A DNA stretch of 34,124 nucleotides from Bacteroidales bacterium. Lineage in GTDB: Bacteria > Bacteroidota > Bacteroidia > Bacteroidales > P3. The position numbers were made by a program, and so were the translations under genes. Positions 7,296 to 20,382 of this stretch are shown piece after piece. The notes under the pieces were generated by a model, which searched no databases, had not been told where the DNA came from, and saw nothing but the letters and a program-made list of their open reading frames with translations. Numbering within the stretch: position 1 is the stretch's first letter; every line of letters begins with the position of its first letter. The DNA lies in the NCBI GenBank assembly GCA_017454015.1, contig JAFTDW010000031.1, forward strand, positions 1 through 34,124. Direction: 5' to 3'.

Positions 7296-8597
7296 TTATC
7301 GGCGACCTTGGCGGGCGTTGGTCGTGGTGGTGGTTGTTGTGGAGCTGCCACGCGACGAGCTGCTGCCGCTGTTCACTGTCGAACGCGTATTGCTCGTGGA
7401 TGTGCTTGTCGTGCTGCTGCCACGCGACGAGCTGCTGCCGCTGTTGACGGTGCTGCGGCTTGAACTGCTCGACGAAGAGGTGCTGACAGCACGCGAGGTT
7501 GTGGTGCTTGGAGTGTTGACCGTTGATGTGCTACGCGAAGTGCTGCTTGACGTTGTTGTGGCAGAGGTGCTGCGAGTGGCTGTAGTCGGGGCAGTGGTGG
7601 TCTTGGCAGTGGCGGTGCCACGGCTACTGGTGCCTGTGTTCACCGTGCCGCCGGTGGTGTTGCTCCCTCGGCTGCTGGTGCCTGTGTTCACCGTGCCGCC
7701 GGTGGTGTTGCTCCCTCGGCTGCTAGTGCCTGTATTCACCGTGCCGCCGGTGGTGTTGCTCCCTCGGCTGCTAGTGCCTGTGTTCACCGTGCCGCCGGTG
7801 GTGTTGCTCCCTCGGCTGCTGGTGCCTGATTTGATGTTGCCGTTGCCATTGCCACGGTTGTTGCCGCCGTTGTTGGTGTTGACACCTCCCCTACCGTTGT
7901 TACGGTCTGCGTCGTTGTTGCCAGTGGCTATACGCCCCGTGGGACGTGTGTCGCCGCTGCCGCTGCCAATATACTCGTGGCCGGAGAAGCCATTGTACTT
8001 ACCCGTATAACTCGGACGGTCGATACCCGGGGTGTAGGGGCGGTCGGGGGGCGGCGGGACATGGCCCGGCTGACGCATATAATAGGGATGGAGGACCACA
8101 TGCGGATGCCCAGGTGCGGGGTATGCCGGCGGGACCCAACCATATTGGTGTATCTCATAGTGATATGTACGCGAATAGCCCGGCGCATGAACCACGCGGA
8201 CAAAGGTGTTGTAGCGCGGCATGGTCCATGCAAACGACGGCGCTGTGCGCGAGTTGCGGAAACGCAGGTAGTCGGCGGCGCTGTACATGTTGCGACCATC
8301 ATGAAGCCATACGCAAGAGAGGTCTATGGGCATATAGATCTCATCGCCGGTATAGGCGTCGTAGCCGAAAATCCAAAGCTCGTAATACTTGGAGTTGATA
8401 GCTTCGTACCACACATCGGAGAGGATAACGTAGGTGGCAAGCTCATTCTGATAGCCGCAATAAATCATCAGTTCGGGTTGCACAGAGAGTGCAGCGACCA
8501 CACGATGAGCCTGCGGCAGGGTGAAAAAGCGGATATTATTAGCCGCCACGGACAGTGCTAACGCACAAAATGCCACGAAGATAGCAATTCTTTTCAT
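7296..8597 (-). CDS. Secreted protein with Ser/Thr/Gly/Asn-rich tandem-repeat tail
   Basis: 433 residues. An N-terminal signal peptide (MKRIAIFVAFCALALSVAA) precedes a folded region of about 140 residues rich in Tyr and Trp (for example YYELWIFGYDAYTGDEIY, then CVWLHDGRNMYSAADYLRF). A Pro/Tyr/His-rich linker follows (about 160-200). From about residue 225 the chain is almost entirely Gly, Ser, Thr, Asn and Arg. It contains four complete copies and a partial fifth of the 16-residue unit GTSSRGSNTTGGTVNT, then poly-Ser/Thr blocks including two copies of a RSTVNSGSSSSRGSS unit, and ends NARQGRR. There is no lipobox or T9SS domain. The tail looks disordered and could be an O-glycosylation target or a cell-wall spacer; that is inference. 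I do not recognise the folded domain. A good consensus promoter lies just upstream, so it is probably transcribed alone. Confidence 0.8.
   Translation of the reverse strand: MKRIAIFVAFCALALSVAANNIRFFTLPQAHRVVAALSVQPELMIYCGYQNELATYVILSDVWYEAINSKYYELWIFGYDAYTGDEIYMPIDLSCVWLHDGRNMYSAADYLRFRNSRTAPSFAWTMPRYNTFVRVVHAPGYSRTYHYEIHQYGWVPPAYPAPGHPHVVLHPYYMRQPGHVPPPPDRPYTPGIDRPSYTGKYNGFSGHEYIGSGSGDTRPTGRIATGNNDADRNNGRGGVNTNNGGNNRGNGNGNIKSGTSSRGSNTTGGTVNTGTSSRGSNTTGGTVNTGTSSRGSNTTGGTVNTGTSSRGSNTTGGTVNTGTSSRGTATAKTTTAPTTATRSTSATTTSSSTSRSTSTVNTPSTTTSRAVSTSSSSSSSRSTVNSGSSSSRGSSTTSTSTSNTRSTVNSGSSSSRGSSTTTTTTTNARQGRR
7348..7445. repeat. Two copies of a 26-bp repeat, 72 bp apart, in the coding sequence
   Basis: An identical 26-bp stretch starts at 7348 and again at 7420. 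It encodes the duplicated NSGSSSSRG segments near the C-terminus of the repeat-tail protein, indicating a 72-bp duplication separate from the 48-bp array. Confidence 0.8.
7621..7829. repeat. 48-bp tandem repeat, four complete units plus a partial unit
   Basis: Units begin at 7621, 7669, 7717, 7765 and 7813 (partial). They differ at only a few third-position bases, such as CTACTGGTG/CTGCTGGTG/CTGCTAGTG and TGTGTTC/TGTATTC, all silent in the protein. The 48-bp period keeps the reading frame, so copy-number changes would lengthen or shorten the protein by 16 residues without breaking it. Confidence 0.95.
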
Positions 8598-8656: not shown

Positions 8657-10137
8657 ACAAAAATACAAGTAGCCCATTGCATCCTGAACGTTATACAGGA
8701 TTTTCCATTAATATTTTGTCGTCATCACGGTATTACAGTATTACGTTAATTGCGCTTTATGCGAGACTTTAGTCCTTGACAAGGCGCACCGACAACCCAT
8801 CGCTGCGATTTGTATGTTGGTCGGGCTTCAGACTGCTGCTATTGTCGAAGTACAAATAGTAGACGGAGTATGTGCCATATCTACTAGACGAAACGTAATA
8901 ACCTGTACTACCGACTTTGCTGATAGTCTTGTTTATGCGACGGCCTGCGGCAGGCAAAAACACAGCCCCTTCGGTCTCCATAAAGGTCCAGTCCGAATCG
9001 GTGTATATGTTGCTTGTGTAGTTTGCTTCGCCTCTGTTTATGTTTGTGGGCAGGGCAACCTCGCTGGGGTGCGTGTAGTTGTCGGGAAACAGTATCAAGC
9101 CGGGGACATTGTTTACCCTTGCCTTTGCGTATCGGGCGTTTGCCGTGCCGTTCACCGTCGAGGCACTGCGTGTTTTGAACATGTAAACCCACTCATCATT
9201 GGTCAACGTACGCCACAGTCCTGGGGCGTTACCGCCGTTGCTGATGGCGTTGTACACACCCCAGTCGGCATTGGCATAGTCACCGGTAAGGTTGGTGTTG
9301 TCCATACCACCGGGCTTATAATCAGCATTCAAGGTATTGGTTGACCACGGCTGGTAGCAGTTGGCACCGCTGTTCCATCCGCTGGTGCCCCAGCAGAACA
9401 GGTCTATCCAACCGCTGTAGGAGCTTGAGATGTTGGAGTTGGCGGAGCCGATACAGTCCCACTGGTTGGTGGCAAACTTCCATGTGCCAGTGCTGGCCTG
9501 ATACTGCAGGTTGCCCTGCGAGAACCGCACCGTGCGGCCGCTCGCCACACTGAACTCGCCGTGAAGCTCCCCCGAGGGAACAACGGTAACGAAGTTCAAC
9601 CCCGTCAGCGTTATCGTCGTTATCTTGCCGCGCTCCACGACTATGCTGCTGCTGGCCGTCTTGGTGCAGGCGGTGCTGGTCGACGACGTGACGGTGATCT
9701 CAAAGGTGCTGTAGCTGCCCGCGGGCAGGTACATGTAGAAGTCCTTAGCCGACGCTATGCTCTGCGCCGTGCCCAGGCTCAGCGTCGTGGTGGCAGTGCC
9801 GGAGCCTATGGAGCCAAGGCTCACCGACGTGCCGCTGCCGCTGATGGCGGCTACGCCGTTGATGTTGCTGTTGGCGGTCACGGCTATCGAGCTCACGCTC
9901 ACAGCCTCAGAGGCCGACAGGCGGAATCGCACCACGCCGCACAGGTTGTAGAAGTGAAGGTTCTCGTCCGTGCCGTAGGCATACATGGGCAGACGATGCA
10001 GCGAGCCGTCCGCGCTGTTCTGCACCGCGGGCAGCGTCACCTCGTCGGCAGCGGTGTGTATGCTGGCGGGGGTCACGGCCTTGAAAGGCGCGACGCTCGC
10101 CGCGCTGCCGCTGTAGTACTCATAGTCGCAACTTCTG

Positions 10138-10158
10138 CTCGCCGGCGTCGCCGGCGAG
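10138..10158. other. 10-bp perfect palindrome at the frameshift site
   Basis: CTCGCCGGCG and CGCCGGCGAG are separated by one base. The palindrome sits in the middle of the only interval (about 10122-10196) where the two frames of the lipoprotein gene can be joined. Such GC-rich snap-back structures favour both replication slippage and base-calling errors. Confidence 0.75.
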
Positions 10159-10264
10159 CACATAGAGACCCCACGACGACGCATTGTCGTAAATACTTAT
10201 AGTGTCGTCCGCGCTCCACAGCAACGTGTGGCCACTCAGCGACAACTTATTCGCTTCGCTCATG

Positions 10265-10322
10265 ACGTTTCTTTGGTTCGGCAATGTGTGCGAGCCCCCA
10301 TTGCTCTCACTGTGCGAAACGT
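10265..10322. repeat. Palindromic interspersed element, copy 1 (inside lipoprotein gene)
   Basis: About 58 bp bounded by ACGTTTC (10265-10271) and GAAACGT (10316-10322), with an inner inverted pair GCAATG/CATTGC (10281-10286, 10299-10304). From 10279 it matches 18409-18452 and following bases at about 80 % identity (CGGCAATGTG and CATTGCTCT are identical blocks). It is translated in frame just after the lipoprotein signal, as part of a Ser/Asn/His-rich stretch. Confidence 0.6.
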
Positions 10323-10449
10323 TGCCATTCTCCGTGGTCTGCTCCGCACTGGCCCTGAAGACCATCCCCTCACCCGTCTCTTTGGAGCAAGATACCACAA
10401 CCGCCGCAACAACAGTGGCAAACGCTAATAAAATCAAATTCTTTTTCAT

Positions 10450-10721
10450 TGTTTTGTACATTCAATATTCTATTCAACTTTTAATTTCAACATTAATGCC
10501 CGTTATTCGCTGTCCATGTTTCATTTAATAGGTGCTCATGACCTTAGTTGATTATTCATGTAATTTTCCATTAATGATTAGTTAATGACTAATTACACGG
10601 CAATAAAAGTTTTAAAATCGTACACGCCAATTATTGTTTTATAACCTCAATTCATGGCAATTGTTTGAAGTTAATTATTTTGTTTGTCGCTTTGAACATT
10701 TGGAAATCCGCGAGACGTTGC
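10450..10721. other. AT-rich intergenic region upstream of the split lipoprotein gene
   Basis: 272 bp, much more AT-rich than its surroundings, with no ORF of note. I found no TAnnTTTG box on the minus strand. It contains ATTAG/CTAAT inverted pairs around 10575-10592 and several TTAATG/CATTAA words, similar to the inverted repeat near 13000. It presumably holds the promoter of the lipoprotein gene and the 3' end of the lipocalin-like gene transcript. Confidence 0.5.
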
Positions 10722-18330: not shown

Positions 18331-20382
18331 ATGACAAGATGTTGTAGAGGTTATAGGAACCACAGTAAATACATTGGTTGGTTTCTTCGCACCCTCGTTT
18401 TCTGGCTGCGGCAATGTGAGCAAGCTCTCATTGCTCTTGCTGAACGAAAACGTTACGCTATCTGCCTCATCGTCATGATGCTGACTGGGGTGCAAGCTTG
18501 GTCGCAGGAGCTGCTCACCCCTGCCACGCCACCGGCTGATGTCCCCGATGGCGTGGGGCACAGGGCCCGCAAGAGCGCCCTGCCGCTGCAGCTGCCCTTC
18601 TTCGACGACTTTGCGGGCCACCACGGAGCGCCGGACGCCGCGCTCTGGAGCGACCGCTCGGCGTACATCAACACCACCTACGCCGCCTACCCTCCCACCA
18701 TAGGGATGGCAACCCTCGACGCCGTAGATGAGTACGGCGAGCTGCATAGCGATGCCGGTATAGGCTCTTTCCCTGGCGACACACTGACATCCAACCCCAT
18801 ACGCTTGGACTCCATACTCTCACCCTACCACGCCGCGCTCACCGCAGCCGACTCTGTGGTGCTGAGTTTCTTCTACCTCCCTGGAGGCGGCTATGGCAAG
18901 CCGTGGGAATGCCAACGCATAGGCGACATGCCCGACCGCGGAGACTCGCTAATAGTGGATTTCTACAATGCCCAAAGAAACAAGTGGACTACTGTGAAAA
19001 GAATAGACGGCGGCATACCTGTTGACTCCCTCAATAACAAACCGTGGCTGGCATGGCAGTATGTGGCGATAGCCGTTGCCGACAGTTTTTTCAGCGACAA
19101 ATTCCAGTTTCGGTTCCGCAACAAATGCAGTCTTGACGCGAACTCCCAAGCCGGCATAGTAGGCAACACCGACCAGTGGAACATCGACGTGGTTCAGCTG
19201 ACCCACCAGCGCTCGGCGGCCACCAAGACGCGCCGCGACATAGCCTTTGTAAACCCCGCCACATCGCTACTCAAGGAATACACCGCCATGCCCTACAGGC
19301 ACTATGCCCCGTGGCACATGCGGACAAGAATCAACAACACCATCGTGAACCGCTACCACCAGGCGTTGCCGACGGAATACCACTACTACATTCTCGACGA
19401 GAACGGCACCGAAGTGCACAGCTATGACGGCGGCTCGGAGAACGTGCTGGCATTCTATCTCCACGGCAGCTACCAGACAGCGCAAAACCACAACAATCCG
19501 CCTGTATCGTTCCATTTTCCCGCCATGACGAAACCCTGCCACTACACCATACTCCATGTGGTACGCGACGGATTTGCAGGCGACAACTACCCCGCCAACG
19601 ACACCACCGCGTTCCGGCAAGAGTTCTCCAACTACTTTGCCTACGACGACGGCTCGGCGGAGAACGGCTACGGCCTCACCTCCACCTCCAACCGCATGAA
19701 GCTGGCATGCCGCTTCCACGCCTCAAAGGCCGACACACTGACATCGGTAGACCTCTATTTCAACCACACACGCGGCAACGAGAACACCGGCATAGCCTTC
19801 CACATCTGCGTGTGGGCCGCCCGGGCCGACGGCAAACCCGACACCGCACTGATTTATCGCTCCAAAACAACCTACCGCACTTCGTTCTGCGGCTTCAACC
19901 GCTACTGCAACTACAGCCTCGACAGCAACCTTGTATTAAAAGGGAAAGACACCAACTTCTACATAGGTATAGAGCAGATAGGCAACAAATACATCAACCT
20001 CGGCTTTGACCGCAACAACGACAACAGCGACAAGACCTACTACTGGACCAGCTCCAACGAGTGGCAGCAGAGCATACTGGGTGGGACGGTGATGATGCGG
20101 CCGCGCATGGGCACTGTGGCGCTGCTGGGCACCGAGCGCAAGCCCTGTGGCCAGGCTGTGAGCCTCACCTGCTACCCCAATCCCACCACAGGAGTGCTCC
20201 ACATCGCCACCGCCGAACAGAGCAACAACCTGCATATAGAGCTCTACAACCTACAGGGACAACGCTACGGCAGCTATCTGGGCACGACAACTATCGACAT
20301 GGCAACACTCCCCCCTGCCATCTACTTGCTCCGCGCCACCACCGACAAGGGCTCCGCCACCATGAAGATAGTCAAAAAATAG
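18331..20382 (+). CDS. T9SS type A sorting-domain secreted protein
   Basis: 683 residues from the ATG at 18331, 13 bp after the PASTA gene. The signal-like core (KRYAICLIVMMLTGVQAWSQ) begins only at about residue 47, preceded by an odd extension (MTRCCRGYRNHSKYIGWFLR and so on) that is partly encoded by a palindromic element. Residues ~75-290 look like a jelly-roll or lectin-like region (LPFFDDFAGHHGAPDAALWSD; VVLSFFYLPGGGYGKPWE; KFQFRFRNKCSL), a type often seen in T9SS cargo. The C-terminus is a type A sorting domain (CYPNPTTGVLHIA, ELYNLQGQRYGSY, ATLPPAIYLLRA, SATMKIVKK). Substrate or partner is unknown. It lies between the PASTA gene and rluD, all on the + strand. Confidence 0.85.
   Translation: MTRCCRGYRNHSKYIGWFLRTLVFWLRQCEQALIALAERKRYAICLIVMMLTGVQAWSQELLTPATPPADVPDGVGHRARKSALPLQLPFFDDFAGHHGAPDAALWSDRSAYINTTYAAYPPTIGMATLDAVDEYGELHSDAGIGSFPGDTLTSNPIRLDSILSPYHAALTAADSVVLSFFYLPGGGYGKPWECQRIGDMPDRGDSLIVDFYNAQRNKWTTVKRIDGGIPVDSLNNKPWLAWQYVAIAVADSFFSDKFQFRFRNKCSLDANSQAGIVGNTDQWNIDVVQLTHQRSAATKTRRDIAFVNPATSLLKEYTAMPYRHYAPWHMRTRINNTIVNRYHQALPTEYHYYILDENGTEVHSYDGGSENVLAFYLHGSYQTAQNHNNPPVSFHFPAMTKPCHYTILHVVRDGFAGDNYPANDTTAFRQEFSNYFAYDDGSAENGYGLTSTSNRMKLACRFHASKADTLTSVDLYFNHTRGNENTGIAFHICVWAARADGKPDTALIYRSKTTYRTSFCGFNRYCNYSLDSNLVLKGKDTNFYIGIEQIGNKYINLGFDRNNDNSDKTYYWTSSNEWQQSILGGTVMMRPRMGTVALLGTERKPCGQAVSLTCYPNPTTGVLHIATAEQSNNLHIELYNLQGQRYGSYLGTTTIDMATLPPAIYLLRATTDKGSATMKIVKK
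18396..18452. repeat. Palindromic interspersed element, copy 2 (inside T9SS cargo gene)
   Basis: 57 bp bounded by CGTTTTC (18396-18402) and GAAAACG (18446-18452). The inner stem GCAATGTGAGC (18411-18421) pairs with GCTCTCATTGC (18424-18434) with one mismatch and two loop bases. Relative to the coding strand it is inverted compared with copy 1. It encodes the residues just before the signal-peptide core. Confidence 0.6.

Follow-up and report, generated by a model that had tools for sequence, protein, structure and literature searches.

How do two genes that encode unrelated secreted proteins come to share a stretch of palindromic DNA? The question arises in 34,124 nucleotides from a Bacteroidales bacterium, referred to here as the window, which represent the whole of contig C10 of a 2.3 Mb assembly (G000; 63 contigs, 93.9% complete). 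The original prediction described two palindromes, at 10265-10322 and 18396-18452, and took them for copies of a REP- or MITE-like mobile element that can enter coding sequence and be translated. We found the arms of both palindromes at exactly these positions. The extent of about 58 bp proposed for the first is that of the palindrome, but the element itself is 75 bp long, because a non-palindromic tail belongs to it (10249-10323 and 18380-18454). We conclude, with a probability of about 0.86, that a short, non-autonomous mobile element has left a copy in each of the two places; it is an imperfect palindrome, mostly 72-87 bp long, and is dispersed in the genome. The features of the window that are discussed below are as follows.

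8769-10184, minus strand: C-terminal piece of the copy 1 lipoprotein gene
10120-10461, minus strand: N-terminal piece of the lipoprotein gene, with copy 1 in frame; frameshifted downstream, paralogs intact
10249-10323, minus strand: copy 1 of the element, 75 bp, subfamily A, read as NVSHSESNGGSHTLPNQRNVMSEAN; defined by alignment with other copies and the covariance model, and by 25 residues missing in a paralog on contig C5
10265-10271, no strand: copy 1 outer arm, left, ACGTTTC, complementary to 10316-10322
10281-10286, no strand: copy 1 inner stem, left, GCAATG
10299-10304, no strand: copy 1 inner stem, right, CATTGC
10316-10322, no strand: copy 1 outer arm, right, GAAACGT
18331-20382, plus strand: copy 2 gene, secreted protein with a type IX secretion sorting tail (Por_Secre_tail)
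18380-18454, minus strand: copy 2 of the element, 75 bp, subfamily B with GGGTGCGAAGAAACC tail; antisense in its gene
18396-18402 and 18446-18452: copy 2 outer arms, CGTTTTC and GAAAACG
18411-18416, no strand: copy 2 inner stem, left, GCAATG
18429-18434, no strand: copy 2 inner stem, right, CATTGC

The Two Copies in the Window

A repeat search gave 76% identity between copies 1 and 2 over 54 nt without gaps, close to the predicted 80% or so over about 45 bp. The ungapped score of the pair (+1/-1) was 28, whereas the best of 1971 random 75-base segments of the window scored 11 against copy 1; chance can therefore be excluded. The copies point the same way on the DNA and their genes lie on opposite strands, so that they are indeed read in opposite orientations.

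Copy 1 lies in frame behind the lipoprotein signal, as had been proposed, 21 residues past the lipoprotein cysteine. The same insert with similar flanks is also present in genes on contigs C53 and C9 (the latter cut by the contig end), and the three lipoprotein-family copies therefore probably represent one insertion spread by gene duplication. When the protein encoded by the C53 gene was compared with that of a 72%-identical paralog on C5, the latter lacked precisely these 25 residues at this point. The copy 1 lipoprotein gene itself (8769-10461) is split by a frameshift; more than 10 related frames of over 500 aa are open in the genome.

Copy 2 is located between the inferred start codon of its gene, an ATG (18331) 13 nt past the upstream stop, and the hydrophobic part of the signal peptide. 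The closest ortholog (G011) probably starts at a TTG 17 nt past the upstream stop, and its signal peptide aligns after the element. From this comparison, in which both start codons are inferred, copy 2 appears to have been inserted between the start and the hydrophobic core.

Two other kinds of repeat were seen in the window. Tandem repeats with 48-bp and 72-bp spacing at 7318-7848, within an open reading frame at 7296-8597 (minus strand), are by eye unlike the element. A second repeat family, with the core GGTCATGAGCACC...ACATGGACAGCGAATA, is represented at 10494-10566 (minus strand), upstream of the copy 1 gene; it had 80 matches in the genome at E ≤ 0.01, with a 46-bp spacing in places, and its core is nested inside some copies of the palindromic element.

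The Element Is Dispersed through the Genome

The original prediction had suggested looking for further copies with conserved ends, and these turned out to be present throughout the genome. A covariance model built from 28 copies gave at least 145 matches at E ≤ 1; because 150 of 1530 candidates were scored, such counts are lower bounds. The model scores of the window copies prove nothing, since both are in its training set. After weaker matches and opposite-strand overlaps had been dropped, 127 copies in 98 clusters were kept. With blastn at E ≤ 10, and counting each copy's match to itself, there were at least 63 matches in the genome for copy 2 (49 with E ≤ 6e-16) and at least 14 for copy 1. 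Neither window copy was among the matches listed for the other. Both are linked by a copy at C57:122895, which matches copy 1 with E = 4.7e-7 and is 98% identical to copy 2, and a copy at C58:28378 also matches both.

The family thus defined consists of imperfect palindromes of about 75 bp each, of which both window copies are members. The order of a unit is AAC-GTTTTC, a spacer, an inner hairpin of 6+3 bp, a second spacer, GAAAACG, and a tail of about 12-16 bp, the outer arm being CGTTTTC/GAAAACG or equivalents. The main tails are CTCATGAAATGG, in the 72-bp unit, and GGTTTCGAAGAAACC-like types, in units of 75-76 bp; a longer core gives units of 83-87 bp. Of 89 units with both ends, 86 were 72-87 bp in length, and one 72-bp unit occurred 11 times in identical form. 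Units stand singly or head to tail, with a tandem period of 72, 75-76, 83 or 86 bp. In one copy (C18:9044) the inner hairpin is inverted relative to the others. At a contig end (L113, G000:C63:91357-91465) a subfamily-A-like unit occurs as a tandem coding array, SVAQSESSESLLTLPSQSHAANEAS and variants.

In 26 distinct rows of the alignment 98.1% of paired cells were complementary, compared with 33.8-55.8% when the partners were slid by 1-3 columns, and 17 cells carried compensatory changes, compared with 6.7 in shuffles; the inner stem (GCAATG/CATTGC) shows such changes across copies. Pairs changed on both sides were not clearly raised (3 versus 2.1 in shuffles, a value reached by 55 of 500 shuffles), nor were further pair types (8 versus 8.1). 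The copies are kin, and this covariation is therefore supportive only. When six copies were folded as single-stranded DNA, z scores ranged from -1.67 to -3.30, with copy 1 folding modestly better than its shuffles (z = -1.67). The outer-arm helix appeared in the predicted single-strand folds of L027, L320 and L071; it was absent from those of L010 and of both window copies, in which the inner stem was kept.

The flanks are almost constant. When a motif filter was applied to both ends, 91 of the 127 copies passed; in 85 of these the dinucleotide AA precedes the element, and the right flank is AAC (76), AAG (6) or AAT (3), again 85 in all. An empty site exists within the genome: an intergenic repeat on C7 reads ..ACGAATTTGAACGTTTATTCG.., and at C23:71165 one unit lies exactly between two AAC copies there. 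The constant AA is either duplicated on insertion, or represents the target plus an end of the element.

In-Frame Copies in Unrelated Genes

We used open frames as a guide to location. A frame of at least 140 aa runs through 41 of the 98 clusters (54 open reading frames, many of them overlapping or spurious); the other 57 have no such frame through them, and most copies therefore look intergenic. In about 19 credible genes the frame runs on through a copy; among them are the genes for ValS, IleS, a hydrolase of family GH92 and a pseudouridine synthase of RluD-like type. The in-gene copies use five reading frames, i.e., three sense and two antisense.

The evidence for these 19 genes is of several kinds. 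For six of them (ValS, IleS, the copy 2 gene, and the lipoproteins on C53, C10, i.e., copy 1, and C9) orthologs or paralogs could be compared. In three, a Pfam match spans the insert (GH92, PseudoU_synth_2 and Acyltransferase), and the IleS domain match does so too. The remaining 10 rest on an open frame together with domains on both sides of the insert in three (UvrD; GH3 plus PF00144; ResB plus Cytochrom_C_asm), domains on one side in five (Ro60/TROVE, S4-PseudoU of RluB-like type, VTT, NAD synthase and CHU_C), and no Pfam match in two (C57:114703 and a lipoprotein-like frame at C52:7582).

ValS carries a double insert of about 46 residues, opposite which there is a gap in all 27 aligned orthologs, the closest of 80 returned. 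The element model found no match in the DNA of any of 27 ValS, 27 IleS and 29 copy 2 ortholog loci; the protein alignments were usable in 25 of 27 rows for IleS (without L305 and L308) and 27 of 29 for copy 2 (without L247 and L256). The site in IleS is a hypervariable loop, and other residues therefore stand there in some orthologs. In alignments with PDB chains the break coincides with the element in IleS (chain residues 211-217) and RluD (110-112); for GH92 it covers 393-413, a gap somewhat larger than the element. The absence that the original prediction had proposed to look for was thus found both in the C5 paralog of the copy 1 gene family and in the orthologs of the copy 2 gene within the genus. 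Because the inserts are missing from the ValS, IleS and copy 2 orthologs and from the C5 paralog, we conclude that they arose by insertion.

All 11 in-gene units with canonical ends have lengths that are multiples of 3, compared with 57 of 78 others (one-sided p = 0.042), a marginal difference in which two of the 11 units, on C10 and C53, are paralogs. Selection of the element for coding was also considered, and was rejected, because open frames per unit (2.87 in 71 distinct units) hardly exceed those in dinucleotide shuffles (2.57).

Could the similarity instead reflect a protein-level repeat motif of homologous secreted proteins, with no DNA element involved? In the lipoproteins, ValS and the Ro60/TROVE protein, subfamily A does use a single frame (NVSHSESN.. 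and the like), but the use of five frames in both orientations in unrelated proteins, together with the 57 clusters that lack long frames, refutes this reading, as the original prediction had argued from the two window genes.

An artefact of mis-joined repeats in a fragmented metagenome assembly would account for the fact that, among the 63 contigs, C9, C18, C26, C47 and C52 begin or end within copies. We regard it as very improbable, given that ValS, IleS, GH92 and others continue in one frame on both sides of the copy, and that the same architecture occurs in relatives from other assemblies.

The Element in Related Genomes

We then surveyed 118 genomes with a covariance model (R1), using stricter filters and scoring at most 41 candidates per genome, so that match counts are lower bounds. 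Matches at E ≤ 1e-5 were present in 41 genomes, this one included, all of them in the genus of the window (41 of 71 genomes there); there were none in 47 other genera, each represented by one genome. The present genome was the richest in matches, and G038 was another rich one. Named ValS relatives came mostly from uncultured Bacteroidales, many of rumen or other gut origin, and were 71-73% identical at best.

Relatives have other arm pairs, i.e., CGTTGC, CGTTAC, CGTTTCC and CGTTATC, each with its matching partner; the survey of these demanded perfect arms, so that it is no test of covariation, and it includes at least one chance match (L090). At only 9 of 84 places in relatives does the element lie within a frame of at least 150 aa, and two of these are in an IS5-type transposase gene (DUF772 and/or DDE_Tnp_1) that carries an in-frame subfamily-A element in G039 and G063 (L084:1514-1573 and L087:1514-1573). 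An IS5-type insertion sequence could ferry the element between species. A locus in G047 (L338) has the same flank as the element in that transposase gene. In G033 a copy (L070, around 1501-1590) lies directly before a sequence that resembles the start of a 16S rRNA gene.

With one 75-bp subfamily-B query, phage records gave one weak match (74%, E = 4e-3) and plasmids none. One exact pattern found nothing in viral contigs, and Rfam at gathering scores identified no family in the window.

How the Element Might Move

We infer that the element is mobile and that it is translated within host proteins. A trans-acting enzyme would recognise the element in hairpin form and move it to a place beside an AA(C) site, and the identical copies suggest recent amplification. 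Most insertions would survive outside long genes; survival within a gene would call for a unit whose length is a multiple of 3, an open frame through it and a tolerant site, such as a signal peptide, a linker or a loop. The host protein would then gain about 25 extra residues. In the case of copy 1 these may form a hydrophilic stretch behind the lipid anchor, and in the case of copy 2 they may lengthen the n-region of the signal peptide. The original idea of insertion into coding sequence followed by translation is supported by 19 genes that stay open in five frames, in which translation of the insert is presumed.

The class of mobile element is a separate matter, and two known classes have to be weighed. 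One is that the element is a MITE, i.e., what is left of a DDE insertion sequence after internal deletion, moved in trans by the transposase of that sequence. Inverted outer arms and high copy number would fit, as would the subfamily-A element carried by the IS5-type transposase gene of G039 and G063. However, that element lies inside the transposase gene rather than at its ends, a non-exhaustive look revealed no parental insertion sequence with matching arms, and the flanks are a constant AA and not a variable or TA duplication. We therefore consider a MITE unlikely.

The second class is the classical REP or BIME, moved by a RAYT (Y1 HUH) transposase at a short target. A short palindrome, a constant short target and head-to-tail arrays resemble the behaviour of REP/IS200-IS605 systems, and the present element has a constant short flanking target and such arrays; moreover, Y1_Tnp genes occur in 46 of the 71 genomes of the genus. 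Against this, there was no Y1_Tnp match in this genome, at 93.9% completeness, or in G038, and a hand count showed no association across the genus, with Y1_Tnp in 26 of the 41 genomes that have the repeat and in 20 of the 30 that do not. Alignments read by eye show no GTAG tag at one end and more than a single short stem, and units are mostly 72-87 bp, as against the 20-40 bp given for REPs in the available text of PMC3733652. A REP in this strict sense is decidedly improbable, and we rejected RAYT as the mobiliser for want of a Y1_Tnp match in the genome and of an association in the genus. The original interpretation is largely right, with two refinements to its REP- or MITE-like label: a strict REP is not supported and a MITE is unproven.

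The arms of the element presumably do not fit integron attC core sites either. Returning to the hairpin element that we favour, a tentative extension is that it may represent a genus-wide class of single-strand-hairpin mobile elements, moved by a putative enzyme that cuts beside AA(C). Thanks to a length of 72 or 75 bp, the unit would be able to enter genes in both orientations and several frames, multiply there in tandem, and so add stretches of 24-25 residues to essential enzymes and export signals; it would then be a protein-lengthening element outside the Rickettsiales.

Comparison with Known Systems

Palindromic repeats with coding potential outside Rickettsia are reportedly the subject of a paper's title cited in PMC2229807, and we found no report of the present family in the open-licence PMC literature.

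Among the closest parallels are the Rickettsia and Wolbachia palindromic elements (RPE and WPE), described in the available portions of several papers as dispersed palindromes found between genes and also, with the frame kept, inside conserved protein genes that are unrelated to one another; a tRNA pseudouridine synthase and uvrB are examples in R. conorii (PMC3733652, PMC2229807, PMC3767692, PMC10969869). The element is likewise dispersed and palindromic, lies inside and outside genes, and leaves unrelated conserved genes in frame. Unlike RPEs, it occurs in a different phylum and is mostly 72-87 bp long, whereas the typical length is 100-150 bp according to the excerpted text of PMC3767692, and unlike RPEs and WPEs it forms frequent head-to-tail arrays, is flanked by AA and is read in five frames.

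As far as the available sections of PMC3733652 go, REPs tagged with GTAG or CGTC are 20-40 bp long, the CGTC types having one stem of 8-9 bp, a loop of 4-5 bp and an unpaired tag. The same sections equate RPE-4 and RPE-6 with shorter CGTC repeats, report CGTC repeats from Bacteroidetes, seemingly without a dedicated transposase, and place intragenic REPs in many phyla, free-living bacteria included, with copies in genes for tRNA synthetases, pseudouridine synthases and UvrD/REP helicases (PMC3733652). The element resembles intragenic REPs in being a short palindrome with some copies inside open reading frames. It differs from the GTAG and CGTC types in having two nested arms and a length of mostly 72-87 bp, and its main subfamily carries neither a GTAG tag nor an unpaired CGTC. 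CGTC is found at the outer arm of subfamily A and of some relatives, with its CG within the complementary arm, and is absent there from subfamily B.

PARCEL repeats (palindromic amphipathic repeat coding elements), in the available account, are palindromic DNA that encodes units of about 25 residues in tandem arrays in membrane-targeted proteins; the domains, mostly recognised as DUF285/TIGR02167, lie in open reading frames made of repeats with another motif (PMC2996958). The element shares the palindrome, the units of about 25 residues, the tandem arrays and the membrane-targeted proteins, but the genes in which it occurs are ordinary ones, and most of its copies lie away from long frames. 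No DUF285 match at E ≤ 0.001 was found among 29 distinct open reading frames scanned with Pfam, and PARCEL was rejected on its protein motif.

As a functional kind, the element would work like RPEs and intragenic REPs, a likeness of behaviour. In view of its length and of the tag and RAYT findings, we do not file it as either. Rickettsia and Wolbachia are the genera in which in-frame palindromic insertions into conserved genes are most familiar; for several free-living bacteria, the available part of PMC3733652 lists REPs inside open reading frames. A longer and different repeat in a Bacteroidales lineage akin to genomes from rumen and gut, present in valS and ileS, adds to the case that such insertion is a general route rather than a side effect of living inside cells. 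Foreign segments of 24-25 residues in essential enzymes are something that gene callers and protein-family models will have to deal with. Since 40 congeneric genomes have matches and some genes contain tandem arrays, insertion, expansion and tolerance can be tested by comparison.
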